Below are positions 9,438-32,693 of a DNA stretch of 45,237 bases, piece by piece. The DNA comes from an uncultured Kiritimatiellota bacterium (GTDB lineage: Bacteria > Verrucomicrobiota > Kiritimatiellia > RFP12 > DVOR01): assembly GCA_944391065.1 (NCBI GenBank), contig CALXSH010000011.1, positions 1-45,237 of the forward strand, read 5' to 3'. The stretch's first letter is position 1. Each line of letters opens with the position of its first letter. The position numbers and the translations under genes are program-made. The notes below the pieces were generated by a model, which had not been told where the DNA came from, did no database searches, and saw nothing but the letters and a program-made list of their open reading frames with translations.

Positions 9438-9956
9438 TTACCGCTGAATCTTGCCGTCTTCTCTGAGGCGCAAAGCCTTTCCTTTGACCGTCGCAGTTTC
9501 AACCTTATAGATAGGGCTGAACCCACGCATTGTGCGGTGCACACGCTTTGGGACGACGACATCCGCGCCCTTTGCCTCCGCCGCGGTAAGAGCAGTATAA
9601 TTGGCCCGTTCCGTGGGGCTACCGCCGGAGAAGCGTTCGCCGAGCCAATAGATCGTGTCAGCGATAATGCCCTGGGACGGAACATCCTCGTACTGATCCT
9701 CAAATGTGCGGAACCCGAAGATAATCATCTTCGACGGATCGTTGTCGACGATATGGACGATGTTGAAGTAGGAGGTGACCTCGGAGGTCTCCTCAACATC
9801 ACCCATGATCTCATAGTCCTCTCGGTCGAGGTTCATATTGACCACAGGGATGGCCTCCGGCGCTGAACGTTTGGCGGTGCTGCAACCCGTGGCAAGAAGC
9901 CCCACAACCCCGACAAAGGCAATGAGGGATGAACGGATGAGGGTGGTAGTATTCAT
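9438..9956 (-). CDS. Lipoprotein of unknown function, last gene of the Tad run
   Basis: A 172-aa protein with a type II signal peptide: hydrophobic stretch at residues 11-22 and lipobox LLATGC with Cys25. The mature part includes REDYEIMGDVEETSEVTSYF and a later AKGADVVVPKRVHRTMRG segment, suggesting a small alpha/beta domain repeatedly seen in exported lipoproteins of environmental bacteria; no named family is assigned. The ATG at 9956 is chosen over an upstream in-frame start because AAAGGAAC lies just before it. It is separated from the preceding lipoprotein gene by 49 bases containing a hairpin, the largest gap in the run, so its expression may differ. Dependence on the Tad machine is inferred from position. 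Confidence 0.8.
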   Translation of the reverse strand: MNTTTLIRSSLIAFVGVVGLLATGCSTAKRSAPEAIPVVNMNLDREDYEIMGDVEETSEVTSYFNIVHIVDNDPSKMIIFGFRTFEDQYEDVPSQGIIADTIYWLGERFSGGSPTERANYTALTAAEAKGADVVVPKRVHRTMRGFSPIYKVETATVKGKALRLREDGKIQR

Positions 9957-9975
9957 GTTGTTCCTTTCTGAAGTT

Positions 9976-9998
9976 GGCCGGGACACCGCGTCTCGGCC
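9976..9998 (-). other. Intercistronic hairpin between two lipoprotein genes
   Basis: GGCCGGGAC (9976-9984) and GTCTCGGCC (9990-9998) pair over nine positions with one mismatch and a five-base loop. On the transcribed strand no T-run follows it, so full termination is unlikely. It may act in mRNA processing or stability at the junction. Confidence 0.45.
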
Positions 9999-10005
9999 GA
10001 AAAAA

Positions 10006-10923
10006 TCATCGTTCGGAATCCTTAGGGCGAAGATCTCCGCGGAAACAGACTAGGAGCGTTGCTGCGGGCTGTCTCGGATTCACGTACGGAGCATAACGTT
10101 TCTTAAAAACAACACAGCGTGTCCTCTCCTTAGCCCAGACCCGTACATCGCCCGTCCCGAGGCAGAATATAAATGCCGGATGCAGAAAAATATCTCCATA
10201 GAACGTGCGGTCGGTCATCAGCGTCGTTAGATCATTCAAGTCCGGCAATGCCCCTGAGAAGCCCTGCTCCTGAAGGCTTTCCGCAAACAGCCGGGCTTCC
10301 TCAAAAGTACAGGCCGGACGATCCGGGTAGTACCAAGTACAGTTCAAAGCGTGATCATAAATCATCGGACGTCCGGAGGCTGTCACGAAGGGCTCAAAAC
10401 GATTTCGGATTTTCACCGATTCGATAACCTTTGGTGCAACGGTGGCAGTGCTGATCACTGCGCCCGCGAGGTATGCGCCGTCGAACCGCTTACCTTTCAA
10501 TTCAAAACACTCCTCCGGAGAATCCAAGTCTATATCACCATAAGTCTGCCGTTGCGCGTCCCAAGCCACATCTCCCTGAACCCCAGCCTCTACGGCAAGT
10601 TCAATCTCCCCTCCGCGACGGACACGCACCTCATAAAAAGGGCTTTCCGAGGACGCTTCGATCCAACGAGGGGTTCCCCCGCGGTGGCGTACGCTCAGAG
10701 GGACAGTGTAGATCGTTTCTCCTTCGCATTCCAAACGGAACTTGCACATCACGGAGTCCGTTGCAGGCGTCACATCGAGCTCCATGTTACCACGCGGGCG
10801 ATAGGGCTGTCCGTAATCCACGGATTTCAGAGGCCGTCCTGTTTTCGAGGCGCATCCCGCAAGCAGAGTCGCCAAGACAAGCGGCAACAGATTTCTAAAT
10901 GTTGGATTTTTTTCGATAAGCAT
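10006..10923 (-). CDS. Lipoprotein with DUF1566-like C-terminal domain
   Basis: A 305-aa lipoprotein with lipobox LLAGC (Cys24). Residues of about 40-150 look beta-rich and resemble a carrier-protein-like domain (ECEGETIYTVPLSVRHRGG, then VRVRRGGEIELAVEAG). The C-terminal half resembles the DUF1566/Lcl-type domain: NCTWYYPDRPACTFEEARLF, a GALPDLNDLTTLM segment at the place of the usual WRLPT-x-x-EL, and a final aromatic-rich strand region. Such domains occur in secreted or surface proteins of unclear function. The ATG at 10923 has GGAG ten bases upstream. It follows the kinase gene by 15 bases in the same run, so it may be a surface or pilus-associated component; this is inference. Confidence 0.8.
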   Translation of the reverse strand: MLIEKNPTFRNLLPLVLATLLAGCASKTGRPLKSVDYGQPYRPRGNMELDVTPATDSVMCKFRLECEGETIYTVPLSVRHRGGTPRWIEASSESPFYEVRVRRGGEIELAVEAGVQGDVAWDAQRQTYGDIDLDSPEECFELKGKRFDGAYLAGAVISTATVAPKVIESVKIRNRFEPFVTASGRPMIYDHALNCTWYYPDRPACTFEEARLFAESLQEQGFSGALPDLNDLTTLMTDRTFYGDIFLHPAFIFCLGTGDVRVWAKERTRCVVFKKRYAPYVNPRQPAATLLVCFRGDLRPKDSER

Positions 10924-10938
10924 GGCAATAGAACTCCT

Positions 10939-13080
10939 TCAATCCTCAGGAGGGGGGATTTCATAAAGGTCTGCGGATTCATTAGTCAGATCCAGCCGCA
11001 TTCCCGCATGATAGGGCTGGACGTCCCCCGCACGCCGAGGGATTTTTGCCGGACAGAAACTTGCTTCGCTTCCATCCGAGCGCTCCAAAAAAAGCCAGTA
11101 GTTCCCGTCTCCGGGCGCATTCCGGCGCAGAAAGTCCGCAAGTTCCTCCGGTGTGCAAGGCCCGAACGCCTTGGATTTCCCGCCAAATTTTCGGAACCGT
11201 CCCTGTATCGCCGCCACAGGCCTTCCATCCTCGACGACGGACAGCCCCTGAATCCGTTTGGGCTCAACTGTCTCGGCGCTTAACAAGAGGGTTACGTGAG
11301 GGCTGTCGCCTACCGTCATTCGACGGGCGACAACGGCTCTCCAACGTTCCTTCTCGTTGTTCCCTCGGGCCACAGAGACGTCAAAAGACTTTCCTGGCAA
11401 CGTTTCAAAGACATAGGGGCCCTTCGGGAAATGTACAGGACGCCCCTCCGCCACCACCGTTACCTCAGCCTGCGTAATTTCCCGCGTGCCCAAAAGCAGA
11501 TGCAACGTCACGCTAAGCGGGGCAACGGGGGGCGCGGATGCATCGGCATTCTGGCTCGCCTCCTCATCCGTTTTGACGGAAGCCTCCCTCCGTTGAGGGG
11601 TGTTCTCAGTGCCCTCGTTGCGTTCCGCATGTGGGAGAAAGACACTTTCCAAAGTATGGTCATTCTCAGTCTCCGCCTCAACAGGGGACGGGGCCAGGCG
11701 TACGGTTGCCGTGTCGGCTTCCGGACGTACCGTCACGGAAGGCTCCAAGGAGGGGCCGGAGGCCGGCTCCCGCGGCGGCGGGCATTCCGGATCCGCCGTA
11801 CTTTCTTTCGAAAGCATCTCTGTGAACCTCGCGGCCCGTTGTTCTCGTGACGGCGAATGCCGGGCCCCGGCGCTTCCGTCCGGAGATGAAGAAGGTTTCG
11901 GTATGGAGCGCTCAGCATGCTCCGACGGGAAAAGCTCCGCAGAAGTCGGCTGCGTTGGCTCCAGGCTCATGTGGGGCGGCGCCTTTGATGCTTTCTGCCG
12001 GAATGAAAACCACGCAAGCCCCATTCCCAATAGGACAACCACCCCTGCAAGCAGCATAACGCGCATCCACCGCCGTCGGAGCAAGATGAAGATACGATGC
12101 CCCATGGAGGGCAGGATCGGGCGAGAGTCCGCCGCTTCGGCAGCAACAGTCTGTGTCGGCAAGGTCTCCTGAGAAACAGCATCCGTTGTCGGCATTGTCC
12201 GAGCCGCATCATACGTCGGCGGTGCCGGATGTTCCGGCTCCAATTCCCTGAGGCGTTCCAGCAGATCTCTTACCGAAGCCGGACGGCGGGAGCACTCTTT
12301 ATCCATCATAGTTCGCACCAGTGTCGCCGTTTTTTGGGAAACATCAGGACGGATTGAGCGAACATCCGGCGGGGGAGCTTTGTCCACGACTCTTGCCAAG
12401 ATCTCCGTAATTGATTTCCCGGCGTAAGGACGGTGTCCGGACAGCATTTCGTAACAAACGACCCCAAGACTGTAAATATCCGCACGTACGTCCACCTTCC
12501 CGGCGTCTGTCGCCTGTTCAGGAGACATATAAGCAGGCGTCCCAAAAACAGCCGCCGTCTGCGTAAGATTCGGATCATCCCCCAAATCAGCTTTCGCGAT
12601 GCCGAGATCGGAAAGCTTGGCTTCCCCCTGCTCATCAAACATAATATTGTCGGGTTTGATGTCCCGGTGGACCATGCCAAACCGCTCCGCCTGCCCGAGC
12701 GCCTCCGCAACCTGACGGACGATGTCCAACGCGGTTTTCTCCGCGAGCGGTCCTTCCTTGGCTAAGAGCTGTGCGACATTTCCCCCTGGAACATATTCCA
12801 TGACAAGATAATAAAGCCCGGTAGCAGGATCCTTCCCGACATCATAGACCCCGACCAAGTGCGGATGGTGAATGCGGCTGGCAAGGCGTGCCTCCCGCAT
12901 AAACCGCTCCACATAGCGCGGATCCCGTTCCGCGACGGCGGGATCCAAGATTTTCACGGCGAAGGGTGTCTCCAACAGCGTGTGACGGGCCAACCAGACA
13001 CTTGCCATACCGCCGTGCCCCAAAAGACGCTCCAGGCGGTATTTCCCGAACAGCATACCCGATTTGACAGCCACGCTCAC
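10939..13080 (-). CDS. Transmembrane Ser/Thr protein kinase of the Tad locus
   Basis: A 713-aa Hanks-type kinase. The cytoplasmic catalytic domain (about 12-280) is complete: glycine loop GHGGMASV (21-28), Lys43 in AVK, HRDIKPDN with catalytic Asp140, DLG in place of DFG (158-160) and SPE (186-188). A Thr-rich activation loop (NLTQTAAVFGTPAYM) offers autophosphorylation sites. A Pro/Thr-rich linker leads to one membrane segment at about 341-360, then an outer region of some 350 aa: a Pro/Ser-rich stretch and a C-terminal beta-rich domain of unknown family. GTG start overlaps the cpaF2 stop as GTGA. With the PP2C gene two genes upstream and three FHA proteins in the same run, it most likely phosphorylates Tad components; targets are not known. 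Confidence 0.92.
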   Translation of the reverse strand: MSVAVKSGMLFGKYRLERLLGHGGMASVWLARHTLLETPFAVKILDPAVAERDPRYVERFMREARLASRIHHPHLVGVYDVGKDPATGLYYLVMEYVPGGNVAQLLAKEGPLAEKTALDIVRQVAEALGQAERFGMVHRDIKPDNIMFDEQGEAKLSDLGIAKADLGDDPNLTQTAAVFGTPAYMSPEQATDAGKVDVRADIYSLGVVCYEMLSGHRPYAGKSITEILARVVDKAPPPDVRSIRPDVSQKTATLVRTMMDKECSRRPASVRDLLERLRELEPEHPAPPTYDAARTMPTTDAVSQETLPTQTVAAEAADSRPILPSMGHRIFILLRRRWMRVMLLAGVVVLLGMGLAWFSFRQKASKAPPHMSLEPTQPTSAELFPSEHAERSIPKPSSSPDGSAGARHSPSREQRAARFTEMLSKESTADPECPPPREPASGPSLEPSVTVRPEADTATVRLAPSPVEAETENDHTLESVFLPHAERNEGTENTPQRREASVKTDEEASQNADASAPPVAPLSVTLHLLLGTREITQAEVTVVAEGRPVHFPKGPYVFETLPGKSFDVSVARGNNEKERWRAVVARRMTVGDSPHVTLLLSAETVEPKRIQGLSVVEDGRPVAAIQGRFRKFGGKSKAFGPCTPEELADFLRRNAPGDGNYWLFLERSDGSEASFCPAKIPRRAGDVQPYHAGMRLDLTNESADLYEIPPPED

Positions 13081-14147
13081 GCCAAACCCTCCAGCGGGAA
13101 ACCCATCCGCGCAGCCTCTTCCGCGAAAGTTGGTGGCGCGAGGCGTTCAAAAGTTCCCTCCCGTTTTCCCTGCTCCGTGAGGGCTTCCGTACGCCACCGG
13201 ACAAGATCGCGTACGGCGTATTCCCCGGATACCAAGGGTAGGACCTCCGATACGGCCACCATTTTGCGCGAGCCATCCGGGAGCCGCGCCGTATGCGCGA
13301 CCATGTCTACCGCAGAGGCTACCTGCGAGCGCAACGCCGACAACGGAAGGTTCACGCCACTCAGGAGCGCACAGGTCTCGAGACGATACAGACAGTCCAA
13401 AGGTGAATTGGCATGAATAGTAGACATAGAGCCCGCATGTCCCGTATTCAGGGCTTGAAGCAGATCAAGGGCTTCCCCACCGCGGATTTCACCGATCACA
13501 AGGCGATCCGGGCGCAACCGAAGAGCAGAATGGATCAGATCTCGGATGGTGACCTCTCCCTGTCCGTGTTTGTCCGGCCGCCGCGTCTCAAAGCAGACCA
13601 CGTGCGCCTGTTGCAACTGGAGCTCGCTTGCGTCCTCCAGTACCAAGACACGCTCCTCCGGGGGGATGAAAGAGCTCAACGCATTGAGCACGGAGGTCTT
13701 GCCCGAGGAAGTGCCACCGGAAACGATGATGTTCCGGTGCAGACGGACTGCGGCCCGCAACAACGTCACCAAGCCTTTATCCACGCTCCCAAAGCTCAGC
13801 ATCCGTTCAATGGAAAGCGTCTCCTTTTTGAATTTTCGGATCGCGATCACCGTGCCGCACCGGGCGAGCGGCGGGATCACGGCATGGACCCGCGATCCAT
13901 CCGGCAGACGGGCATCCAAGCGCGGGTTCGCGTCATCCAGAAGCCGTCCGACTCCCCGGGCGATGTTCACTGCCGTAGCCCTCAGTGCTGCCTCGTTCAC
14001 AAAATGTGCCTCCGTGGGCTCCAAGCGTCCCCGGCGCTCTACATACACTTGTGAGGGCCCGTTGATAAGAATCTCGGAAACATCGTCATCCTCAAGATAA
14101 GCACGTACCGGTTCCAGAAAAAAGACCAAGAAGTCCGCCGTCGCCAC
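13077..14147 (-). CDS. Second, short CpaF/VirB11-type secretion ATPase
   Basis: A 356-aa hexameric secretion ATPase of the CpaF/TadA family. It begins directly with the second N-terminal domain (ISEILING-like EILINGPSQVYVERRG at about 26-40) and lacks the helical first domain and the FHA module of the other ATPase in this run. Walker A is GGTSSGKTS (144-152, Lys150), Walker B region RLVIGEIRGGEA with Glu220, and the family-typical STIHANS follows at about 242-248. The GTG at 14147 is chosen over longer in-frame extensions since GAGGAGG precedes it by six bases and the phosphatase stop is one base away. It lies between the phosphatase and kinase genes, so it may drive a regulated second step such as export or retraction; this is inferred. 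Confidence 0.9.
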   Translation of the reverse strand: MATADFLVFFLEPVRAYLEDDDVSEILINGPSQVYVERRGRLEPTEAHFVNEAALRATAVNIARGVGRLLDDANPRLDARLPDGSRVHAVIPPLARCGTVIAIRKFKKETLSIERMLSFGSVDKGLVTLLRAAVRLHRNIIVSGGTSSGKTSVLNALSSFIPPEERVLVLEDASELQLQQAHVVCFETRRPDKHGQGEVTIRDLIHSALRLRPDRLVIGEIRGGEALDLLQALNTGHAGSMSTIHANSPLDCLYRLETCALLSGVNLPLSALRSQVASAVDMVAHTARLPDGSRKMVAVSEVLPLVSGEYAVRDLVRWRTEALTEQGKREGTFERLAPPTFAEEAARMGFPLEGLA

Positions 14148-14148
14148 T

Positions 14149-14964
14149 TTAGTCCTCCTCTCGTCCAATGATCGATTCCAGATACACCCCTTCTGCGCGC
14201 TCCTCCTCGGAAAAACGGACCGCCTGAGGAAGAATGAGGGGAACTTCGAGCAATACAAATGAAATGTTGTCCCTGGCCTCGGTCGTCAGAGCCTGCGACA
14301 GAAGGTCATCGGCCAGGGCCTCCGTCGGAAGCGTCTGCACCAGTGTTTGCCTGATTGCAGAATCGGGCAGGGCAGAGGTCAGGCCGTCAGAACACAGCAA
14401 TAAGAGATCGCCTGGACTTAGGGAAATATCCGTCCATTGCGGATGGATTTCTTCGGAGACCCCCACGGCTCGCGTCAACAGGCGGCCCAGTTCTGGGCGC
14501 AGTTCCGCTCCGCCGGACATCTCGTTTGCGACGGTATGGTCACATGTCAGCCGCTCCAGTGTCGCCGAACGAAAACGATAGGCCCGGCTGTCACCCAAAG
14601 CGCAAAGCGTAGCCCGGTCAGTATGCTCCGGATCCAGCAGACAGGCACAGAGCGTCGCCCCCATGGACTTCAGCCCTTGTTCCCGAAGATAATGACGGAT
14701 CTTTCCGTTCACACTGCACAGCGCATCCATGAGCGCATACTTCCGTGTCCCCTGCGGTTCCACGTTTTCTCCGGCGAACGCACCGGACAGCGTTTCAACC
14801 ACCCACCGACTGGCCAGTCCCCCCGCCGAAGCGCCGCCCATCCCGTCCGAAACGAGGCCCAGCCCCACCCTAGGAAAGATGCCGACGGCATCTTCGTTGC
14901 GCGAACGAAGTCTGCCAACATTCGTACGGAAGGTCCACCGAAAGCCATCAAAAGGATATCGCAT
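14149..14964 (-). CDS. PP2C-family Ser/Thr protein phosphatase
   Basis: A 271-aa soluble PPM/PP2C phosphatase. Metal-binding and structural motifs appear in order: RNED (22-25), SDGMGG (39-44), GDSRAY (124-129), SDGL (192-195) and RDN (231-233), so the dinuclear metal centre looks intact. No transmembrane segment or extra sensor domain is present. The ATG at 14964 has a GGAGGGG site overlapping the end of the previous gene (TGAGATG junction). It is followed one base later by the second ATPase and then the kinase, so it is the natural antagonist of that kinase. The combination matches the PppA/PpkA pairs of type VI secretion in logic, though this operon is a Tad system. Confidence 0.93.
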   Translation of the reverse strand: MRYPFDGFRWTFRTNVGRLRSRNEDAVGIFPRVGLGLVSDGMGGASAGGLASRWVVETLSGAFAGENVEPQGTRKYALMDALCSVNGKIRHYLREQGLKSMGATLCACLLDPEHTDRATLCALGDSRAYRFRSATLERLTCDHTVANEMSGGAELRPELGRLLTRAVGVSEEIHPQWTDISLSPGDLLLLCSDGLTSALPDSAIRQTLVQTLPTEALADDLLSQALTTEARDNISFVLLEVPLILPQAVRFSEEERAEGVYLESIIGREED

Positions 14965-14965
14965 C

Positions 14966-15298
14966 TCACCCCTCCCCCACGGAAAGCCGACAAACATTCG
15001 GCCCAGTACGGCGCAGCAACGTCAGAATCTTCCGACCTGATTTCCCCCAGAGAATGAGCTCACCCCCATTGCGCGGGAGAATAACGGCCTGACACATTTC
15101 CCAGCCTTCCGCCAGCATTGCAGCTTCCAAGCGCACGCGCGCCGAGCCGTACGGAAGCGCCAGCCAAGCCTCCTGGCGCCATCCTGCCACCGCACCCGTG
15201 GGACGTAACTGTGGGAACGGCACCGGGAAATCCGCGCCGTTGCCGAGCCCTCCCATCAGAAAGCACGCTGTCAGGAGGCTATTCCGTAAAAAGTTCAA
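14966..15298 (-). CDS. Small exported protein with TTG start, Tad run
   Basis: Proposed 110-aa protein starting at TTG 15298, inside the last 20 bases of the preceding TadE-like gene. AAAGGA lies nine bases before the TTG, and the product then begins with a good signal peptide (MNFLRNSLLTACFLMGG, cleavage near GNGA). A longer in-frame extension upstream would only overlap the TadE-like gene and give a low-complexity N-terminus. The mature part is about 90 aa with a GWRQEAWLALPYGSARVRLE segment that looks like a small alpha/beta domain. No family recognised. Position between a pseudopilin and the phosphatase suggests a periplasmic assembly factor. Confidence 0.55.
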   Translation of the reverse strand: MNFLRNSLLTACFLMGGLGNGADFPVPFPQLRPTGAVAGWRQEAWLALPYGSARVRLEAAMLAEGWEMCQAVILPRNGGELILWGKSGRKILTLLRRTGPNVCRLSVGEG

Positions 15299-16082
15299 GG
15301 GTTTCGTTCCTTTCGTAGTTCCCCTCGTCCCGAAGCGTATCCGGGAGAGCCGGGGGATCCGAGGTGGGGTCTGCCGGCTTCCGCTCTGGCCAGATGTCCC
15401 CGACAACCATGAAGAGAACCTCCGGATTGAGGTAAAGAGTCTCACCGGAAAGCGATCGGACATCTAAGTCTCCTCCGAAATAGGACATCCTCAATGCGTC
15501 TCCGGAAGGGCGCAGCAGCATTGTTCCGCAGAGATGCACAACTCCCGGCACATCTTCGTCTGGTTCCGTTGGTCGGGCAAAAGAAAATCCTCCGGACGAA
15601 AGTGTGCGTCCCGTGCGGGGCGCTCCCGTGAAGCTCTTTTCCCAGAGGCGCAGAAAAGCCGCCGGCAATGCCGGGAGTTCCTCTAGACCGTACCCCTCGA
15701 GCCCACCGGTTGTTTCGGCCACATAGCTGTTGGTGCGCGGGTATTTCGCGAAACGGACGGAGCCTGCCATTGTCGGCTCGGAATAGACCTGTGCCCCGGC
15801 ATTCTTGCCCACCCACAGCGCGGCCTTTGTCTTTGCTTCCAGAACGGCCAGTTGGTTGGTATCGCCGGGCTCCGCACCCCAAGTGACCATCCGCTCGGCC
15901 CGAATCAGGCGCAGGCGTGCCGACAGCATCTCCCCCATCAGGAACAATCCGCCCAACAGTAGCGCATAGACGGGAAAGACGAGGATGAACTCCATCATCG
16001 CCGCCCCTCGGCGGCGACGATCCTCCCGCGTAGGGGACGATGGTCGCCCTAGGGATTTGGCATTCTGACGTCTCATCCGCAT
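15279..16082 (-). CDS. TadE-like pseudopilin (second copy)
   Basis: A 267-aa membrane-anchored protein with an N-terminal basic leader ending in RRRRGAAMMEFILVFPVYAL: a Gly at the predicted cleavage point, Glu five residues later, then a hydrophobic stretch of about 20 residues. This is the TadE-like pattern, processed by the prepilin peptidase in known Tad systems. The rest is a periplasmic domain of unknown fold with Pro/Asp-rich C-terminal segments. The ATG at 16082 has GAGG nine bases upstream; a long in-frame extension overlaps the upstream gene and is discarded. It heads the second half of the run, next to the second ATPase, and may be that ATPase's own pseudopilin. Confidence 0.8.
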   Translation of the reverse strand: MRMRRQNAKSLGRPSSPTREDRRRRGAAMMEFILVFPVYALLLGGLFLMGEMLSARLRLIRAERMVTWGAEPGDTNQLAVLEAKTKAALWVGKNAGAQVYSEPTMAGSVRFAKYPRTNSYVAETTGGLEGYGLEELPALPAAFLRLWEKSFTGAPRTGRTLSSGGFSFARPTEPDEDVPGVVHLCGTMLLRPSGDALRMSYFGGDLDVRSLSGETLYLNPEVLFMVVGDIWPERKPADPTSDPPALPDTLRDEGNYERNETLELFTE

Positions 16083-16086
16083 AGGA

Positions 16087-18021: not shown

Positions 18022-18031
18022 TGTCCGGCCC

Positions 18032-19015
18032 TCACTTGTTGTTGTGTTGCCATACGGCCAGCAATTCCGCCGACTGTTTAAGGTCAAACCACTCGAGCGT
18101 GGCCGGTTGCTCGGGGCGCAACGAGACGAGCGTCACCACCGTCGGCGATACCGACGAGACATAGGCCAACATCAATTCTCGGCCTTTTGCTCCCTGCACG
18201 GCATACCATCCGTAGGGCACCAACGACTGCCGCACCTTCGCGGGAACCGCCGCCCATGTCTTGCAATAAAAAGCCGTGTTCGGGTTTGGAAAGAGCCGTG
18301 CCAGCCGCTCCGCCTCCCCAAACCTCAGCTCCCGTCCGATGAGCTGGACGCGGGCCAGTTCACCGCCCTTGCCCTCGCCTAAGCGCACCAGCCACTTCAT
18401 GCGCAGGGCCGTCCGTGCCACGGTCGGTGCGATATCCCATGCGGTGGTGTGCAGATGCGCCTCCCCCGTCAGCGGGTAGAGCACGTCGAACCGCGCCGCC
18501 GTCGCCGCCGTCTTCTCCCATAACACCGTTGCCAACGGCCGAGACTTCGGGGGCACCACCGTATCAACCCGCAACGGGGTCTTCGCTTCTCCGCGGAAGG
18601 TCTCCCCGCAGAGGAAGGCCGTTTCTTCCGCCTGTGGCACACGCTCTTGCCCATAACGTACCGAGGGCCCCCACCGCAACAGCAAGATTGCGTCCTGCCA
18701 TGGATTGTAAAGAGCCGTTATCGCACCTTTCTCCGAAAGGGCGCCGGCCATTGACACCGCCCCAGTGAAAAAGTCAGCCAGCGGCACCTCCGCAAGTTCC
18801 GCCTCGGAACACCGTTTGTCCCACACGACCCTTGCCGGGGCCGAAAAGAAGAGGCGAACCCCCTCTTTCGGATTTTCCGCCATCGCCTCCCGAAACGCCT
18901 CCGTCACCGAGAGCGCCATCACCGTAGGAGCCATCGCCGGGGCTTGCGGTTCCCCCGCCCAAACGTTCACCGCGCACAGAGCCATCGCCGCCACGTATCC
19001 GATTCGTCTCATCAT
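18032..19015 (-). CDS. Exported protein of unknown function, Tad run
   Basis: A 327-aa protein with a signal peptide (MMRRIGYVAAMALCAVNVWA, cleavage before GEPQ). The mature part has alternating hydrophobic and polar residues, with segments such as AITALYNPWQDAILLLRWG and QSLVPYGWYAVQGAKGRELM, suggesting a mixed alpha/beta periplasmic domain. No family recognised. The start at ATG 19015 has GAGG eight bases upstream; the second Met is a one-codon alternative. A longer open frame upstream overlaps the TadG-like gene and is a shadow. It follows the TadG-like gene by ten bases and is followed at ten bases by the 644-aa gene, so the three probably act together. Confidence 0.72.
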   Translation of the reverse strand: MMRRIGYVAAMALCAVNVWAGEPQAPAMAPTVMALSVTEAFREAMAENPKEGVRLFFSAPARVVWDKRCSEAELAEVPLADFFTGAVSMAGALSEKGAITALYNPWQDAILLLRWGPSVRYGQERVPQAEETAFLCGETFRGEAKTPLRVDTVVPPKSRPLATVLWEKTAATAARFDVLYPLTGEAHLHTTAWDIAPTVARTALRMKWLVRLGEGKGGELARVQLIGRELRFGEAERLARLFPNPNTAFYCKTWAAVPAKVRQSLVPYGWYAVQGAKGRELMLAYVSSVSPTVVTLVSLRPEQPATLEWFDLKQSAELLAVWQHNNK

Positions 19016-19025
19016 GTCCGTATCC

Positions 19026-23154: not shown

Positions 23155-23180
23155 GAATGCATCTCCTTGTTTTGTCGGCC

Positions 23181-23381
23181 TCACGGAATCGGCAGCGAAA
23201 CGGCGCGACCGAGTCCCTGAAACCATTGAATGAACGTAAGGCCCATTGAGCGGTAACCCTCTCCGGGCATGAAAAAACTCATAAACAGTATCAGCAACGG
23301 CACGGCGAGCAGGCACAGCAACAGCACATATTCAATCATCGCCTGTCCGCGCACAGCGGTGTTCCGGGATGTCGGCCTCAT
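23181..23381 (-). CDS. Flp-like pilin, small
   Basis: A 66-aa prepilin-like protein. The predicted cleavage is after the Gly in AVRGQAMIEYVLLLCLLAV, with Glu at +5 and Tyr at +6 as in Flp pilins. The hydrophobic core is followed by about 30 residues with aromatic groups (MGLTFIQWFQGLGR). The ATG at 23381 has AAGGAG seven bases upstream and overlaps the end of the FHA gene as ATGA. Being next to the second pilin gene, it may be a minor pilin or the initiating one. Confidence 0.8.
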   Translation of the reverse strand: MRPTSRNTAVRGQAMIEYVLLLCLLAVPLLILFMSFFMPGEGYRSMGLTFIQWFQGLGRAVSLPIP

Positions 23382-25423: not shown

Positions 25424-26925
25424 CGCACACTCCTTCCGATGGCTCGGGTGTCCCGCTCCGGATAGGGGAAGGCCCGCTTTTTCTCGCTGTGCGTCAGCGG
25501 ATGATTGGCAACCCAGCGACGCTGCATCGCCCGGAATTCGGCAAGAATCCCCTCCCAATGTCCGCGCTCCGGACTGCCGGCCCGGGTAGCGCACAGATGG
25601 GCTGCCAGAGACGCATCCATCCGCGGCCAGTCAGCCGTGTCCGGATGCTTCAGCCTTTCGGCAATGACGGCCTCGCCCAGGGCATTCTTCGGCGAAGGGA
25701 GTCCCGGCGTAAAGTCCCAGATGCGGTCCACGGCCTCTGCTGGGTTCTCACCGGCCCGCCACGCCACAAAATATGGGCTGGTTGAGAAAAGAAGCCGGGT
25801 GGCCCGATCACGGACTTCCCAGGGGACCTCCCGCACCAACACCCAACGCCGCTCGCCATGGCGCACAAGAACGGCACTTCCCGCCCACCGGCTGCCGGTA
25901 GGCTCCGTGTGAATATAGCGAAGACAGACTCCCGGAAGCCCATGACCAAGATTGCTGCGAAGCTGATAATCCTCCACATAGATTTCGTCCTGCTCCGGCA
26001 TGGCATAGCGCTGGGTCAAGATCTTGGCCTCCTCCCGCCGCCAGCGTTCATCAATCTCATAAACGTGGCCGCCACGTTGGCGGTCATCAAACCATGCCCG
26101 CATCGAAGCCGCACGGCTGCGGCGAAGTTCCTCAGGAGAATCCGCCACCTCCAGGGCAATGCACAAAGGAACACCTTTAACCGAAACATCCCTTCGGTAT
26201 GTCCCCGGCCCACAATCGGGCAGGACAAACGCCACTTGCGTAACCGGAGGAAGGAGCGAGGTGTCTTTCCACAACGCTTTGAGCAAGAACACCACCCCTA
26301 TCACGGCGACCGCAAGCAAAAGAAAGCCCCTGCGCCGAAGCCGGTTCCGCCGCCGGACCGCCTGGCGTTCGGCCAATAACCGCAGCTCTTCGGGCGTGAC
26401 AGCCCGGGTCCGCTCCGAAGGGTCAAAGAAGGCCGTTCTGTCATCGCTTGGAGTCTCTTGGCAACAGGAAACCGATACCGGAGGAGATGCCGTTGCCGAA
26501 GAAAGCGTTACCGCAGGTGCCGCCACACCGATCGGTACCGTCGCATCGGCAAGCGTAGGGGCCCCCGCCAAGGTAGCCATGGCATCCGCCCCCTGCGTCG
26601 CTGTCTCATCTGCCGCCACAGGCGCCGGCCCGACGACCTCAAAGGCCAACGTCCCCCCCATCTTCAGCATATCCCCGACCGAAAGCGGCAGGATATCCCC
26701 CTGCCGGAGCTTCCGGCCGTTCAGCATCGTCGTACGTACGCTGACCACCTCGATATACGGCACACCCGAGCGGACAGAGAGCAACGCATGAATCGCGGAC
26801 ACGTCCGGGAGCTGCGACCTGATGTCCGCCCGACGCGAACGTCCGATCAGGCGGGGTGCTCCTTCCGCCGGAAAGCTCTGGCCGAAAAGATCGCCGGCAA
26901 TGCAACGCAGCTGGAATCCACTCAT
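25420..26925 (-). CDS. Membrane-anchored protein with degenerate FHA domain
   Basis: A 501-aa protein. Residues 1-100 are FHA-like: LIGRS at 26-30, SAIHA at 43-47 and LNG at 68-70, but the usual STNGT is replaced by a degenerate VRTTM stretch, so phosphothreonine binding may be reduced or lost. A linker of about 90 aa rich in Ala/Thr/Pro leads to a basic stretch (RRRNRLRRR) and one membrane segment at about 201-220. The remaining 280 aa are periplasmic, with no recognised family. ATG at 26925 overlaps the tadC stop (ATGA), and its own stop overlaps the next FHA gene, so tadC and both FHA genes are coupled. Confidence 0.8.
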   Translation of the reverse strand: MSGFQLRCIAGDLFGQSFPAEGAPRLIGRSRRADIRSQLPDVSAIHALLSVRSGVPYIEVVSVRTTMLNGRKLRQGDILPLSVGDMLKMGGTLAFEVVGPAPVAADETATQGADAMATLAGAPTLADATVPIGVAAPAVTLSSATASPPVSVSCCQETPSDDRTAFFDPSERTRAVTPEELRLLAERQAVRRRNRLRRRGFLLLAVAVIGVVFLLKALWKDTSLLPPVTQVAFVLPDCGPGTYRRDVSVKGVPLCIALEVADSPEELRRSRAASMRAWFDDRQRGGHVYEIDERWRREEAKILTQRYAMPEQDEIYVEDYQLRSNLGHGLPGVCLRYIHTEPTGSRWAGSAVLVRHGERRWVLVREVPWEVRDRATRLLFSTSPYFVAWRAGENPAEAVDRIWDFTPGLPSPKNALGEAVIAERLKHPDTADWPRMDASLAAHLCATRAGSPERGHWEGILAEFRAMQRRWVANHPLTHSEKKRAFPYPERDTRAIGRSVR

Positions 26926-27833
26926 CGCATGGTCCTCACGAGATCCAAAATACGGATGGCCACCGGCGCACCGATCACGATAAAAACCGCCGGCATGATA
27001 AAAAGAATCATCGGAAAGAGAATCTTGGTAGGGGCCTTGGCAGCGAGGCGTTCGGCGAGATTGAAGCGGGCTTTGCGCATTTCCTCGGCCTGGATGCGAA
27101 TGGTCTCCGAAAGCGTGGCACCGGTCTTGTCGCTGTTGATAACAGCCTCGGCAAAATAAGTGAAGGCGTCCAGCTGGATCCGATCGGCCATTCCGCGCAG
27201 TGCGACGTCCCGGGAGGAGACCTGCTGTTCACGCATCATGTGGCCAAATTCCTCCGTAAGGGGATTCTGAAGGCGGAGGTCAAGGTAACTCTGCACAGCC
27301 GCACCAAAGCTCTGCCCCGCCGAGACCGCCGCATGCAACAGGTCAAAGACGAAGGGTAGCGCACGGGAGATGGCCCGTTGCCGGGCCTCCACCGCCTTGC
27401 GCAGCTGGGAGGACGGATAGGCGAGACCCATCACCAGCCCAGGAATCAGGCCAAAAAACCACAGGATGCCGTTTTCCTTCCCGGCAACGGAGTCGAGCAG
27501 CAACCCCATACCCGAGAGCATCCCCCCAAAAACCGGGGCGTAGAGCAATCCGGCCACCCAGACCTGTGGCACGGATATCCGTTCGGAGAGACCCGCAACG
27601 GCGAGTTGCCTGCGGATGCGTTCGGAAGCGTCCGTGAAGAGCGCCTCCAGCGCGCTCCCCACCGGAAGCAAAGCGGTGCAAACGGGGGCGACATTGCGGA
27701 ACCAAGCCGGCGTCCCCGCCTCTTCCCGTCCTTCCCGCCCCCCTGCGGTCAGGCCTCCGTGCATCAGCCCCGAGGCCAACCAGAAACTGCCAAGGATAAG
27801 CGCCCCCACCGCAAGTGCCAACAAAAAGTTCAT
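26922..27833 (-). CDS. tadC: Tad inner-membrane platform protein TadC
   Basis: A 303-aa integral membrane protein of the type II secretion F (GspF/PilC) superfamily, the TadC type. Hydrophobic segments occur at the N-terminus, at about 100-145 and near the C-terminus, with the cytoplasmic T2SSF helical domain at about 150-260 (RAISRALPFVFDLLHAAVSA). The C-terminal KILFPMILFIMPAVFIVIG is typical of TadC. It forms the platform with TadB on which TadA works. Start ATG follows the tadB stop by three bases. Confidence 0.88.
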   Translation of the reverse strand: MNFLLALAVGALILGSFWLASGLMHGGLTAGGREGREEAGTPAWFRNVAPVCTALLPVGSALEALFTDASERIRRQLAVAGLSERISVPQVWVAGLLYAPVFGGMLSGMGLLLDSVAGKENGILWFFGLIPGLVMGLAYPSSQLRKAVEARQRAISRALPFVFDLLHAAVSAGQSFGAAVQSYLDLRLQNPLTEEFGHMMREQQVSSRDVALRGMADRIQLDAFTYFAEAVINSDKTGATLSETIRIQAEEMRKARFNLAERLAAKAPTKILFPMILFIMPAVFIVIGAPVAIRILDLVRTMR

Positions 27834-27836
27834 GGC

Positions 27837-28703
27837 TTATACCTCAATGGTGACGATTTTGCGGATCCAGAGAAACCCCAACGTTTCCAAGACCACTACA
27901 GCGCCCAACGCAATCCACCCTGCGGGCCGCGTGACCAACAGCAACATCAGCTGCGTATCGATCAGCAGAAGAATCAGAAAAATGCCGACGGGGGCACAAG
28001 CCATTAGAATAGCCTCAAATTTCCCCTGCGCCACACGGTTCTTCAGCCGCTCGCGGAAGTCCGCCCGCTGACGGATGGTTTCCGCCAGCTGCGCCATGAT
28101 ATCCGTCAGGCGGCCGCCGGATTTGGTCGAGAGGCGAATGGCGGACTTCATCAGCAGCAGATCCTCGCAGGGAACGCGTCCATAGAGCCGGTCGAGAGCC
28201 TCATTGACATCCCTGCAGAGCGGAAGCTCCTCCACTGTCAGCGAGAGCTCCTCGCGCACGACGCCTGGTGTATGCTCAGCCAACGTCCGCAGGGCCTGAG
28301 TGATACCCATGCCAGCCTTGACGTTGCCCGCCAGTCCGAGTACGACATTCAGCATCTGCCGTTCAAAATCAGCCCTGCGGGCTTCGGCTTTCCGACGATA
28401 AAACGCATAAGGGAGTTGCCACCCCAGCAGAGCCGCGGCCACGGCCAGCAACGTCACACCGAAACCGTGAAACCCGACTCCAACCCCAAACAGCAACACC
28501 ACTCCGGCACCGGCGCCGGCCGTCCCCACGCGCAGGCGCGCCAGCTCCTCCGGCGCGATGAACCGGCTGACCGGATCACCCCCCGGGACGATCGCACGGC
28601 TTACAAGCCCGGCATCCATCCGCCGCCGAACCGTGCGCGCCGCCAAGACGGCCACAAAGAAGACCGCCACGAAGACAAATACCAGCAGCAGGGTATCGCT
28701 CAT
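27837..28703 (-). CDS. tadB: Tad inner-membrane platform protein TadB
   Basis: A 288-aa integral membrane protein of the same T2SSF superfamily. One N-terminal membrane segment, two near residues 60-100, a cytoplasmic helical domain containing QMLNVVLGLAGNVKAGMGIT and KSGGRLTDIMAQLAETIRQR, and two closing membrane segments give the usual TadB layout. It lies five bases after tadA and three before tadC, the conserved tadA-tadB-tadC order. Confidence 0.88.
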   Translation of the reverse strand: MSDTLLLVFVFVAVFFVAVLAARTVRRRMDAGLVSRAIVPGGDPVSRFIAPEELARLRVGTAGAGAGVVLLFGVGVGFHGFGVTLLAVAAALLGWQLPYAFYRRKAEARRADFERQMLNVVLGLAGNVKAGMGITQALRTLAEHTPGVVREELSLTVEELPLCRDVNEALDRLYGRVPCEDLLLMKSAIRLSTKSGGRLTDIMAQLAETIRQRADFRERLKNRVAQGKFEAILMACAPVGIFLILLLIDTQLMLLLVTRPAGWIALGAVVVLETLGFLWIRKIVTIEV

Positions 28704-28708
28704 CGCCC

Positions 28709-30439
28709 TCAGCTCTCCGCCGTCGGATTGAAAATGCCGCGGGGCATCCGAAGATCGCCGACTTCGTCAAGGCGGCGCACGAAATCCGGGATGATGCCAT
28801 TGCCGGTATGGTAACCCAAGACACGGCGGCGTTCGTCAACCCCAGTCCGGACAAAAGAAAAGATATCCTGCAACATGATCAGATCCCCCTCACAACCGGT
28901 CACCTCCGAGATGGCCACCACTTTGCGCGAGCCATCCGGAAGGCGTGTTTGCTGTACGATGAGCTGCACGGCGGAGGCGATTTGCTGGCGGATCACGCTC
29001 ACCGGCAGCTCAAACCCGGCCATCAGCACCATATTTTCCAGACGGGTGAGGGCCTCGCGGGGGGAATTGGCATGAAGCGTGGTCAGCGAACCGTCATGTC
29101 CGGTGTTCATGGCCTGAAGCATATCCAGGGCCTCGGCCCCGCGGCATTCGCCCACAATGATGCGATCGGGCCTCATGCGCAGAGTATTCACCACCAGGTC
29201 GCGAATGGTCACACGCCCCGTGCCTTCGACGTTGGCGGGGCGGGCCTCCATGCGCACAAGGTTCCGGTGCTGAAGCTGAAGTTCGGCGGAGTCCTCAATG
29301 GTGATCACACGCTCACCTTCGGGGATGAATCTGGACAGAACATTGAGCAGAGTCGTCTTTCCCGAACCCGTTCCTCCGGAAACCACGATATTCTGCCGTG
29401 TGCGGACCGCCTCGCGCAGAAATTCCCCCATGGCCGGGGTCATACTGCCAAAGTTTACCAGATCGTCCACCGTCAGCTTGTCTTTCCGAAACTTCCGGAT
29501 CGTCAGCGCAGCGCCGCCCAACGACAGAGGACGGATGACCGCATTCACGCGGGAGCCGTCAGGCAGGCGGGCATCCACCATCGGGCTGGCTTCATCGACA
29601 TGGCGCCCGATCGGTTCCACAATGCGGCGGATCACCGCCAGCAGCTGTTCTTCGTCGCAAAACCGGATTCCCGTCTCATACATTTTCCCGCGGATCTCAA
29701 CAAAAATGTAGTCGGGGCCATTGACCATCACCTCGCTGATGTCATCACGGCGAAGCAGCGGCATGATCGGGCCGTAATCTATCAGCTCATCCATCAGAGC
29801 CTGGGCAAACCGCTCCTTGGAAAGACTCGCCGGCAAACGGTGCCCCTGCTCGGTAAGCGCCTGCCAGATCCCCTCGGTGAGCTTTTGGCGCATGGCCCCG
29901 TCAGACCGGCCAACGCCCTCCTTGAGATTCAGCCGCTCCACAATGTCGTGGCGGAACTCCGCCAGCAACTGCACCGTACGCGCGTCATAGAAGGTGCAAA
30001 TATCATGGAAGAGGTTGGCCGCCTCCGGCGGGAGACCGCTCTCAGCACGGGGTGTACACCCGACCTCCGGCGCAGGCTTCAAAGGTTCCTGAAAGGCAGG
30101 CGGCGGAGGCGGCGCGTCCTGGGAGGCAGACGGCGCCCCCTCGCAAAGCTCCAGCGCACAATCCGCCAAGCGCACGTCCATCCCGGGCTCCAGCGCGGAC
30201 ATCCGCTCCACCCGGACCCCGTCGATTGTGAGGCCAGCAGTGCTGCAGAGGTCTTCAATGAAAAAAACACCGTTCACACGGACCAACCGGGCATGGCGAC
30301 GGGAAACGCGCTGGCTGCGCAAAACCACAGCACACTCCGCCGAGCGACCGATAATCCATTCCTGCGCCTCCGGCGCAAGCGGGATCTCCGCACTCATACC
30401 GTCGGCATGGGCGATGCGCAGCCGGACCGAATCGCTCAT
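28709..30439 (-). CDS. tadA: FHA domain fused to Tad assembly ATPase TadA/CpaF
   Basis: A 576-aa fusion. Residues 1-100 are an FHA domain with GR at 31-32 and SRRHA at 46-50; the last loop reads CSTAGLTIDG, so the Asn of the usual STNG is Ala. A Pro-rich linker (about 101-135) leads to a full CpaF-type ATPase: helical N-terminal domain 140-215, second N-terminal domain from about 220, Walker A GGTGSGKTT (355-363), RIIVGECRGAEA with Glu431 in the Walker B region, and LTTLHANSP. It powers pilus assembly or secretion. It directly follows the secretin gene at the place where tadZ usually sits, and overlaps it as ATGA. The FHA part could dock the motor to a phosphorylated partner; the variant loop makes tight binding uncertain. 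Confidence 0.93.
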   Translation of the reverse strand: MSDSVRLRIAHADGMSAEIPLAPEAQEWIIGRSAECAVVLRSQRVSRRHARLVRVNGVFFIEDLCSTAGLTIDGVRVERMSALEPGMDVRLADCALELCEGAPSASQDAPPPPPAFQEPLKPAPEVGCTPRAESGLPPEAANLFHDICTFYDARTVQLLAEFRHDIVERLNLKEGVGRSDGAMRQKLTEGIWQALTEQGHRLPASLSKERFAQALMDELIDYGPIMPLLRRDDISEVMVNGPDYIFVEIRGKMYETGIRFCDEEQLLAVIRRIVEPIGRHVDEASPMVDARLPDGSRVNAVIRPLSLGGAALTIRKFRKDKLTVDDLVNFGSMTPAMGEFLREAVRTRQNIVVSGGTGSGKTTLLNVLSRFIPEGERVITIEDSAELQLQHRNLVRMEARPANVEGTGRVTIRDLVVNTLRMRPDRIIVGECRGAEALDMLQAMNTGHDGSLTTLHANSPREALTRLENMVLMAGFELPVSVIRQQIASAVQLIVQQTRLPDGSRKVVAISEVTGCEGDLIMLQDIFSFVRTGVDERRRVLGYHTGNGIIPDFVRRLDEVGDLRMPRGIFNPTAES

Positions 30440-31947
30440 TTCAGCGCTCCGGTCTTCTCGCGCACATCATCCACCACACCTTCGGCATGGCCACTCGTCG
30501 GCATCGTGATGGACTCCGCCTCCTCCACAATCGGGGAGACCAACAACAGCACATGCGCTGAGGAGGAATTGTTTTCTTCCTTACTGAAAAACCAGCGAAC
30601 AATCGGAATATGCCGCAGAATCGGCGTACCCGACGGCTCCGACCAGTGAACCTTCGCATTGCGATTGTGCGACAGCACGTAGGTGCGGCCCAAGATCATC
30701 GGGAAGCTGGGCGTCTCAAAGGAGACACCATCCGTGCTCATATAAGCCGCAGCGCCCTCCCCTGTCGGCTCACCGCTCCGCTCCACCTTCATCCGACAGA
30801 GGACCATGTTCGGAGCAACCAAACCGCCGGACACCTCCGCCGTGAGGCCGAATTCTACCGACTCCAGCCCGCTGTTGTCCGAAGTATCGTCCGTATTGCT
30901 GCCGGTGTTGACCATCAGGGTTCCGCCGACATGAAGCTTCGCAGGCTCCTCCACATGGTTGGTGAACCGCACACTGTCCGTCAGCATCGCCCGGGAATAC
31001 TCCTCACCGGCGTAAAAATCCGTCGTAGAGGCCGAAATCCCAGTGTCTCCGGAAGAAATGGTGGCACTCCGGGAACGGGAACGGGTACTTCCGCCATCAC
31101 TCGAACGCCCCCAAGCGAAATCGATCATGCTTCCGACGCTAAGGGCATTCTGCCGGCCGTATCGCTCCTCCTCTCCGTCGGAAAGCACGAGCACCGCCAC
31201 ATTCAGCGTAATCACCAGATACTTATCCACCTCCACATTCACCTGGCAGGCAACCTCCCCGGGCTGCGGCTCGGCATCAACGGCCAGATGCCCCACATTG
31301 CGCAACGCTGCACGGATCTTTGCCAATGCCTCGTCAGAATAGGTCTTTCCGGAAACAACCACGCAGTCTTTGCGTTCTTCAACGGCCAGTTCGTTAAGCG
31401 GGGAATTCTGAGTCACCTGCTCCCGGACCACATAGCCAAGGCCCTCCAGTTCCTGGCGCACACGTGCCGGTTCATCCGACACGCGGAGCCGTACGCTGTT
31501 CACCGGCTGCCGACCGAAATACTCCGCTGTCTCCGCTATCGCCGCCTGCAGCTTTTCCCATTCCGTCCGTGAAGCCACCGTTCCCAAGACAGCGCCGTCC
31601 TTTTCCCGGACGGACACCCCTGCGACACCCTGCAATCTTTCGCGCAACGCGCGGACGTACAGTGCAGCATCGTCCAGAATTTCCACCCGAAGCTCTTCCG
31701 TCCCGCCGCCGGCAAAGATCAGCGACAGCGTCCCCTGCCCTGTCCCCGCGCCGGCGGTCAGACGCAGCACCGAAGGCCCCATCGGCCGCACAGAGAGCCA
31801 ATCCGGCGCATCATAGGCGGAGATCGGCGCAGGAAACGAACGCAGCATACTCTCCCCCGGACGGAGGAGCAAGGGCGCCTCTTCGGCAAGAACCATACCT
31901 GCCGCCAAGGCGCAGACGACAGACACAATACAGGCACGCTGACTCAT
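30436..31947 (-). CDS. rcpA: Tad outer-membrane secretin RcpA/CpaC
   Basis: A 503-aa secretin. A signal peptide (about 1-21) is followed by an N-terminal pilus-secretin domain, then a BON-like region (about 85-215) and the secretin domain. The C-terminal signature GTPILRHIPIVRWFFS with a following LLLVSPIV closing strand is the classic secretin end. A Ser/Thr/Asp-rich segment around 280-300 probably corresponds to an extended loop. It forms the outer-membrane channel through which the Flp pilus passes. Start ATG has GGAGG six bases upstream. It overlaps tadA and follows cpaB by 17 bases. Confidence 0.9.
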   Translation of the reverse strand: MSQRACIVSVVCALAAGMVLAEEAPLLLRPGESMLRSFPAPISAYDAPDWLSVRPMGPSVLRLTAGAGTGQGTLSLIFAGGGTEELRVEILDDAALYVRALRERLQGVAGVSVREKDGAVLGTVASRTEWEKLQAAIAETAEYFGRQPVNSVRLRVSDEPARVRQELEGLGYVVREQVTQNSPLNELAVEERKDCVVVSGKTYSDEALAKIRAALRNVGHLAVDAEPQPGEVACQVNVEVDKYLVITLNVAVLVLSDGEEERYGRQNALSVGSMIDFAWGRSSDGGSTRSRSRSATISSGDTGISASTTDFYAGEEYSRAMLTDSVRFTNHVEEPAKLHVGGTLMVNTGSNTDDTSDNSGLESVEFGLTAEVSGGLVAPNMVLCRMKVERSGEPTGEGAAAYMSTDGVSFETPSFPMILGRTYVLSHNRNAKVHWSEPSGTPILRHIPIVRWFFSKEENNSSSAHVLLLVSPIVEEAESITMPTSGHAEGVVDDVREKTGALK

Positions 31948-31964
31948 GGACGACCTCCCCTTCC

Positions 31965-32693
31965 TCAGTTAAGAGCACGAATGCGCCGCTCAAGTTCATC
32001 GGCCGTAACCGTTTCGGGCTTCATCGTGGCGCCATCTCGCACGATCCACGGATAGAGCTCCATGGTACGCTGCGCCCACAGCACGGTCTGGGCGTCACGC
32101 TGCGACAGCTCCAGCAAAACCCCCGCCCCCCCGTTAAGCACCTGGCGCACGCGGATATTCGACAACACCGGACGCAGCGTATACACCGTTCTCGCCTGTG
32201 CCGTGGGAGATGCCGCATCAGCACTCAAATCACGCGGAAGGCGGTCCGGTGAGACCGTCTCTGCCGTCTCCAGACCGACGATCGTGATGTATGCGCCTGC
32301 CCGAAGCAGACGCCCCAGCGTCGCATCCGAGAAGGTTACCGTCGTCAGGCAGTTCTCGCGTTCCGACGGTTCCAACGGTACCGGCGACTCGTCGCTCACG
32401 CCGTCGCGCAAAATGTAATCCCCGCCTTCAACTGCCCGTGTCGCACGACTGCCCAACGGGGAGGAAGTGCCGCGGAACGCCTGCCGGGGAAGCGCCGAAG
32501 AAACGCGCTCAGCTTGCTCCGCATTCCCTTCATTGATGACATCTCCCGCTCGGATGCCAACCCCCCGACGCGCTACCCAGACGCGTTCCGTCACCGGCGT
32601 GTCACGCTCCACGCGGCCGAGCCGATGCCACACCAGAGCCACGGCCATTGCCGCCACAACCGAAGCAATCAGCAAAGGAATCATATTTTTCAT
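31965..32693 (-). CDS. cpaB: Tad pilus assembly protein CpaB/RcpC
   Basis: A 242-aa periplasmic protein held by an N-terminal membrane anchor (about 4-22). Residues of about 35-110 fit the SAF-type domain of CpaB/RcpC, with VWVARRGVGIRAGDVI at its start; the central part (110-150) contains CLTTVTFSDATLGRLLRAGAYITI, the typical RcpC/CpaB segment. It is somewhat shorter than Caulobacter CpaB (about 300 aa). It would stabilise or gate the secretin. AGGGGG precedes the ATG. It is the first gene of the run. Confidence 0.85.
   Translation of the reverse strand: MKNMIPLLIASVVAAMAVALVWHRLGRVERDTPVTERVWVARRGVGIRAGDVINEGNAEQAERVSSALPRQAFRGTSSPLGSRATRAVEGGDYILRDGVSDESPVPLEPSERENCLTTVTFSDATLGRLLRAGAYITIVGLETAETVSPDRLPRDLSADAASPTAQARTVYTLRPVLSNIRVRQVLNGGAGVLLELSQRDAQTVLWAQRTMELYPWIVRDGATMKPETVTADELERRIRALN

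Follow-up and report, generated by a model that had tools for sequence, protein, structure and literature searches.

Why should an operon for a Tad pilus also encode a serine/threonine kinase, a PP2C-type phosphatase and three proteins with FHA domains? The question is raised by a stretch of 45,237 nucleotides from an uncultured Kiritimatiellota bacterium (GenBank assembly GCA_944391065.1, contig CALXSH010000011.1, positions 1 to 45,237 of the forward strand), hereafter called the window. Its source, contig 11, belongs to a 1.96-Mb genome in 79 contigs. Our analysis points to a pilus machine of the Tad (type IVc) group that has its own module for threonine phosphorylation, a reading to which we assign a probability of roughly 0.6. 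If so, a widespread Tad lineage carries a likely phosphothreonine writer, eraser and reader at one locus, plus a second motor (TadA2). This bears on how Tad pili, which have been described as single-motor machines, switch among extension, retraction and rest.

A Tad operon with signalling genes

On the minus strand, the window contains a run of 21 genes (32693-9438), located where a preliminary description of this DNA had placed them; by sequence criteria, the run is a single operon. Membership in the Tad group is indicated by a motor of the CpaF/TadA family, TadB and TadC, a secretin, CpaB, a prepilin peptidase, Flp pilins and TadE/TadG pilins. Among the 21 operon genes, to which this search was confined, Pfam finds no family of the TadZ/CpaE localisation ATPase; because the core is complete, this absence does not exclude the locus from the Tad group.

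The anatomy given in the preliminary description was borne out. The genes overlap or are separated by fewer than 30 bases (-4 to +26 nt after correction of starts, with a 4-nt overlap at seven junctions), and a terminator follows. The Tad core is full and includes two Flp-like pilins, recognised by Pfam and, for the weaker members, by profiles from relatives. The PP2C, the transmembrane Hanks-type kinase, the fusion of an FHA domain to a TadA motor (FHA-TadA) and two membrane-anchored FHA proteins (FHA1x and FHA2x) are all confirmed by Pfam or transmembrane prediction. The three FHA proteins listed there stand, refined here to four FHA domains that are unequal in their retention of binding residues.

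Linkage of kinase and phosphatase to Tad loci

Related loci were fetched twice from 388 genomes of the phylum, with TadA2 and then FHA-TadA as bait, neither of which is a signalling gene. The FHA-TadA bait, whose cut-off excludes the other Tad type, yielded 43 loci in 39 genomes; the fetched stretch contains the kinase in 34/43 and PP2C in 23/43, the relatives being draft genomes with many contig breaks. Seven of the nine kinase-less loci stop at a contig edge inside the locus, and in two genomes (G235 and G346) another contig carries the rest of the locus, with PP2C, TadA2 and kinase. As a control, we annotated 80 TadA loci from species across bacteria with the same profiles and excluded four loci of the present system. 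Within 10 kb, the remaining 76 contain a kinase once and a PP2C three times. By comparison, a kinase is located at most 10 kb from FHA-TadA in 27/51 loci (bait FHA-TadA or TadA2; Fisher p = 1.7e-12) and a PP2C in 13/51 (p = 6e-4); these tests ignore the relatedness between loci, and the annotation profiles were trained on this system. As judged from gene neighbourhoods, the linkage of kinase and Tad is not due to chance.

The arrangement of the genes is variable. Window-type loci have PP2C, TadA2 and kinase at the operon end; in the Victivallales type, the kinase stands ahead of CpaB and PP2C behind FHA2x; in a third type, the locus is divided into two divergent halves, the kinase is short and soluble, and PP2C is absent. 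The conservation of the neighbourhood in relatives had been proposed as a check on the preliminary description, and kinase, phosphatase and FHA proteins do stay with the Tad genes through these rearrangements across the phylum. That the set is retained despite the changed gene order argues for a function.

Within the genus, only one of the 16 other genomes has the system (2/17 overall). This congener, G005, has the complete 21-gene set in unchanged order (G005:C35, 63527-87776) with 28-81% identity, TadA2 being the most conserved; the two loci share no flanking genes, and the system is therefore an accessory block that moves or was relocated. The remaining congeners contain a different FHA-TadA locus with neither kinase nor PP2C. 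Patchy occurrence and unshared flanks are what one would expect of an island that is accessory, relocated or transferred. They also suit the explanation that the signalling genes landed beside the Tad locus by historical accident and were carried along by transfer, as do the different sites in the two carriers and an adjoining decayed transposase. We regard this explanation as extremely improbable and already close to refuted, since families and classes that differ in gene order have kept the set, the kinase is so much more frequent than in the control loci, and the operon is tight, its genes overlapping by 4 nt at the kinase junction. The decayed transposase abuts the 3' end of the operon (window 7900-9260, plus strand); it has an integrase core (rve 1.7e-4), is lower in G+C, and may mark how the Tad block moved.

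A different arrangement was observed in three Tad loci from Bdellovibrionota (L172, L185, L194; about 1-4 kb), where a PP2C is located beside a transmembrane FHA protein before the prepilin peptidase, with no kinase nearby; this is possibly a separate phospho-control of Tad.

Likely writer, eraser and readers of phosphothreonine

Kinase and PP2C look functional: as the preliminary description had noted, their motifs are intact, i.e. the GxGG loop, HRDIKPDN, DLG in place of DFG, and GTPAYMSPE in the kinase, and the metal-binding motifs RSRNED, DGMGG, GDSR, SDGL and DN in the phosphatase. The kinase has a single transmembrane helix downstream of the catalytic domain, and the juxtamembrane regions of window-type kinases are rich in TxP[TS] repeats (26 versus 4.9 expected), which are candidate phosphosites only. 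While the kinase domain is retained, the ectodomain is swapped between loci: it consists of PEGA/carboxypeptidase-regulatory repeats in one locus and Sel1 repeats in another, and is unclassified in the window. This exchange suggests that different cues feed one output. In three related genomes, the genome-wide best match to the window kinase is the kinase of the Tad locus, with the second-best match far behind it.

Among the FHA domains of the window, the full R-S-H-N set is present only in domain 1 of FHA2x; across the loci, this domain has the full set in 31/45, the window included. FHA-TadA has the Asn in 7/49 loci and, without exception, both phosphothreonine-contacting residues, Arg and Ser (49/49). 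These two residues are the equivalents of R30 and S46 of the Agrobacterium Fha protein, which bind phosphorylated Thr14 of the inner-membrane protein TssL (PMC3953482). Domain 1 of FHA2x is intact wherever PP2C is present and degenerate in the PP2C-less branch; because the degeneracy and the absence of PP2C are confined to one clade, we consider them one event.

Both FHA1x and FHA2x possess one transmembrane helix after the FHA domain or domains. The cytoplasmic linker of FHA1x is of low complexity and unconserved, save for one motif immediately before the membrane helix: T-[R/Q]-x-[A/L]-[S/T]-x-x-E-[L/I/M] occurs in 48/48 linkers, compared with 0.47 expected in shuffles, and is nearly absent from other proteins of the locus. 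In the window it reads ERTRAVTPEELRLL; its threonine, Thr173, is a candidate phosphosite only.

Could the FHA proteins instead be structural scaffolds, like the FHA-like domain of SctD/YscD in type III secretion, with kinase and phosphatase acting elsewhere (on the envelope or on expression) and placed in the operon for co-expression? The match of FHA2x to Yop-YscD_cpl (1.2e-18), and weakly to the SctD family TIGR02500, agrees with this, as do the loss of the phosphothreonine-binding Arg from its second domain, the degenerate FHA domains of one branch and the lost Asn of FHA-TadA. Against it, Arg and Ser of FHA-TadA stay invariant while the Asn varies freely, which is the pattern expected for a retained phosphothreonine contact; FHA2x domain 1 has lost none of its binding residues in any locus that has PP2C, and a kinase is nearly always in the locus. 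We therefore hold the scaffold explanation to be unlikely.

Several observations weigh against a phosphorylation module all the same. The FHA domain of FHA-TadA is without the usual Asn outside one branch, and its binding of phosphothreonine may therefore be weak or altered. The second domain of FHA2x is without the Arg almost everywhere, the window included, and both FHA1x and FHA2x lose binding residues in the PP2C-less branch. This branch (12/43 loci) has no local PP2C, and its kinase is short and soluble; hence, not every lineage has all three parts of the switch, one branch being without phosphatase and with most of its FHA domains degenerate. TadA2, too, is missing from some complete loci and is thus not essential to the set. 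The retention of the threonine motif could reflect another role, for example in a membrane-proximal helix (EELxxLR). An AlphaFold model of FHA1x built from four sequences (mean pLDDT 48.7) was too poor for a fold search and was not used. As a candidate for a hidden PP2C in the deviating branch, we considered an additional gene that separates kinase and FHA2x there; its product reads as an HExxH membrane protein and not as a phosphatase. This protein (L115, 17414-18316, minus strand, and its counterparts) is conserved and, in the loci without PP2C, lies between FHA2x and the short kinase; with its motif LAHELVHA it is a possible metalloprotease.

The phosphorylation module nevertheless remains our preferred reading. 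Because the set of kinase, phosphatase and FHA proteins recurs beside this Tad type across the phylum, the Tad motor is probably switched by threonine phosphorylation. Starting from the operon anatomy, the conserved linkage, the conserved anchor residues and the conserved threonine motif, we propose a kinase activity, a substrate, an FHA interaction, a direction of control and a role for TadA2 that would fit together as follows. The membrane kinase would sense a periplasmic or envelope cue via its exchangeable ectodomain and phosphorylate the conserved threonine in the FHA1x linker, and probably also the TxPT sites of its own juxtamembrane region. FHA-TadA would bind the phosphothreonine of FHA1x through its FHA domain, such that the motor is docked or activated at TadB/TadC and the pilus is built, and PP2C would erase the mark. 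TadA2 may act while FHA-TadA is not docked; retraction would be one such occasion, which is a guess on our part. As a picture for the whole phylum – a two-motor type IVc pilus in which the kinase-marked threonine of FHA1x docks FHA-TadA, and TadA2 takes over once PP2C has erased the mark – the scheme is tentative and rather doubtful. The interpretation in the preliminary description is thus partly supported: the anatomy is in keeping with a switch based on threonine phosphorylation, and both a plausible phosphosite and a plausible reader can be named; from them we infer a circuit that would be active and would gate the pilus.

A second motor and comparison with known systems

In a phylogenetic tree of 173 TadA domains (FastTree, with some long branches), TadA2 forms its own clade, apart from FHA-TadA and all other TadA; four Myxococcota proteins are its only members from outside the phylum. 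Most TadA2 orthologues have about 24 residues preceding the NG motif, compared with about 190-290 in FHA-TadA; TadA2 has no FHA domain. With so short an N-terminus, TadA2 can contain no three-helix bundle. This bundle is part of the described minimum architecture of CpaF, and its deletion in Caulobacter abolished the protein (PMC12019362); TadA2 is therefore an unusual second motor. A hidden TadA2 was sought in a Victivallales locus, the gap of which contains an unrelated secreted protein.

The Myxococcota members (L127, L128, L135, L139) are TadA2-like ATPases, and the Tad loci of L135 and L139 also contain FHA-TadA, i.e. they represent two-motor Tad beyond Verrucomicrobiota. The genomes of these relatives have 44-127 kinase matches, and among the matches listed none is in the TadA2 locus. 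Lone TadA2 genes without an adjacent Tad gene occur at G365:C317, G133:C18, G317:C134, G320:C298, G219:C90, G284:C165 and G056:C18; most genomes with a lone TadA2 have a Tad block of this system on another contig.

With the Tad/Flp systems of Caulobacter (Cpa) and Aggregatibacter (Tad), the window operon has in common CpaB, secretin, motor, TadB/TadC, prepilin peptidase, Flp and TadE/TadG. Unlike them, it adds a kinase, a PP2C, two membrane FHA proteins and a second ATPase of the CpaF family, whereas a single bifunctional ATPase is described for canonical Tad (PMC12019362). FHA-CpaF fusions as such are already known: class III CpaF combines FHA domain, linker, three-helix bundle and ATPase in one chain, as does the FHA-TadA of the window (PMC12019362). 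What differs is that the FHA motor is encoded here together with a kinase that could write its ligand and a phosphatase that could remove it.

The Kil system of Myxococcus xanthus likewise has an FHA-fused Tad ATPase (FHA-KilF) and several FHA proteins in its Tad clusters, and a phosphorylation trigger has been proposed by its authors (PMC8460266). Since the nearest pairs of TadA2 and FHA-TadA outside the phylum are from Myxococcota, one may ask whether the window encodes a similar contact-dependent weapon, i.e. a Tad machine assembled on cell contact and triggered by a membrane-sensing kinase. Kil, the secretin of which is short and lacks the N0 domain, has however one ATPase and no TadG (PMC8460266), as opposed to two ATPases and a TadG-like protein here; the operon contains no recognisable effector, and the text of the Kil paper names neither kinase nor phosphatase in the clusters. 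The operon is not a Kil system in these two respects, and a Kil-like weapon appears quite improbable. The phosphorylation idea raised for Kil becomes directly testable by peptide binding.

The preliminary description had also drawn a comparison with PpkA, PppA and Fha of the type VI secretion system. It holds as an analogy of the working principle and not as a homology of the machines. Both systems have a transmembrane kinase, a PP2C and an FHA reader in one cluster, and Arg and Ser of the FHA domain are required in type VI secretion (PMC3953482). Here, in contrast, a pilus is the controlled machine, the motor carries the FHA domain in its own chain, the kinase ectodomains are unrelated, and none of the 21 operon genes encodes a type VI component. 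Variants c to j of the Gram-positive type VII secretion system contain a kinase, a PPM phosphatase and FHA within the secretion locus, which suggests the same control principle (PMC11217815); the machine is a different one, and its FHA is on an ATPase of the FtsK/EssC type. Tad is thereby placed beside type VI secretion and some type VII variants as a machine apparently under kinase/FHA control. Finally, FHA1x matches the NCBIfam family GltG, a protein of Myxococcus gliding, over FHA domain and linker (2.6e-9) and shows the same order of FHA, linker and transmembrane helix, but the match is far under the family cut-off (36 of 650 bits), and Tad genes are not involved in the gliding machinery. 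A search of the open-access literature, with subscription journals and preprints outside its coverage, yielded no paper that describes TadA2 or a Tad operon containing both a kinase and a phosphatase. One specific threonine and two specific FHA residues are identified here for mutation.

The features of the operon are compiled in the table. Pfam recognises two T2SSE ATPases, one of them fused to the FHA domain, FHA in three proteins, two T2SSF proteins, the secretin, the prepilin peptidase, TadE and a Tad/TadG-type protein. CpaB, one TadE and both Flp pilins are weak in Pfam and were recovered by profiles from syntenic relatives, in which CpaB and the two Flp pilins occupy the same places; assignments of the weak families (s165, TadE2, Flp) depend on iterated profiles. 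Start codons were mainly picked by ribosome-binding site, and the chosen starts mostly have a good one. The open reading frames were shortened for FHA2x (25594 to 25423) and TadA2 (14258 to 14147), and likewise for Flp2 (start 23381), Flp1 (23154), TadG (21713) and PP2C (14964); for s165, a TTG start at 15298 is required for retaining the signal peptide. From 5' to 3', the intergenic gaps are 17, -4, 5, 3, -4, -4, -4, 26, 12, -4, -4, 10, 10, 4, 22 (or -20 with the TTG start of s165), 1, 1, -4, 15 and 19 nt, and the terminator hairpin begins 22 nt past the final stop codon.

Features of the Tad operon in the window, from its 5' to its 3' end
Feature	Position	Strand	Evidence or remarks
CpaB-like protein, first gene	31965..32693	-	SAF domain, weak in Pfam; syntenic in relatives
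Secretin (CpaC/RcpA-like)	30436..31947	-	PF00263 8.7e-8
FHA-TadA fusion motor ATPase (CpaF class III)	28709..30439	-	PF00437 1.4e-66; FHA 6.4e-16; CpaF structures 7e-125
FHA-TadA, Arg and Ser anchors of phosphothreonine	30290-30349	-	
FHA-TadA, Walker A	29351-29377	-	
TadB platform protein	27837..28703	-	T2SSF (PF00482) 2.9e-15
TadC platform protein	26922..27833	-	T2SSF (PF00482) 2.5e-10
FHA1x: FHA domain, disordered linker, transmembrane helix, periplasmic domain	25420..26925	-	FHA 3.1e-9; one transmembrane helix
Candidate phosphosite motif ERTRAVTPEELRLLAE (Thr173), FHA1x linker immediately ahead of transmembrane helix	26368..26415	-	T-[RQ]-x-[hydrophobic]-x(1,3)-[ED]-[LIM] in orthologues
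FHA2x: two FHA domains, transmembrane helix, periplasmic helical region	23378..25423	-	two FHA matches 1.2e-28
Flp-like pilin or pseudopilin (Flp2) GQAMIEYVLLLC	23181..23381	-	class III prepilin motif; syntenic orthologue in G005
Flp-like pilin (Flp1) GQTMMEYVLIIC	22891..23154	-	Flp_Fap 0.01; syntenic
Prepilin peptidase (TadV/CpaA)	22342..22878	-	PF01478 3.9e-16
TadE-like pseudopilin	21710..22345	-	PF07811 6.6e-9
TadG-like protein, corrected start	19026..21713	-	PF13400 1.5e-7
Secreted protein x423, system-specific	18032..19015	-	no match in Pfam/NCBIfam; orthologues in many loci of this system
L666, large secreted helical protein	16087..18021	-	no confident family; syntenic in some loci
Second TadE-like pseudopilin (TadE2)	15279..16082	-	PF07811 0.0015
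s165, small secreted protein	14966..15298	-	orthologues in nearly all untruncated loci
PP2C-type Ser/Thr phosphatase	14149..14964	-	PF13672 6.3e-13; Stp1 family 9e-46; metal-binding motifs intact
TadA2, second CpaF-family ATPase	13077..14147	-	PF00437 1.1e-52; CpaF structures 7e-86
Transmembrane Hanks-type Ser/Thr kinase	10939..13080	-	PF00069 8.8e-47
Kinase, juxtamembrane TxPT motifs	12151-12204	-	
Kinase, transmembrane helix	12007-12063	-	
Kinase, periplasmic sensor region		-	
Lipoprotein	10006..10923	-	lipobox LLAGC; no family matched; orthologue in G005
Lipoprotein, last gene	9438..9986	-	lipobox LLATGC; G005 orthologue 60% identical
Intrinsic terminator of operon	9391..9416	-	11-bp stem then T-run; folding z = -4.1

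For the secreted proteins without a family and the lipoproteins, Pfam and NCBIfam yielded nothing reliable. Two of the secreted proteins, x423 and L666, are recurrent in these loci and are candidates for tip, periplasmic or secreted parts of the pilus. Elsewhere in the window (3108-5756, minus strand), a Kelch domain resembling N-acetylneuraminate epimerase is fused to a sodium:solute symporter, likely a sialic-acid uptake protein.

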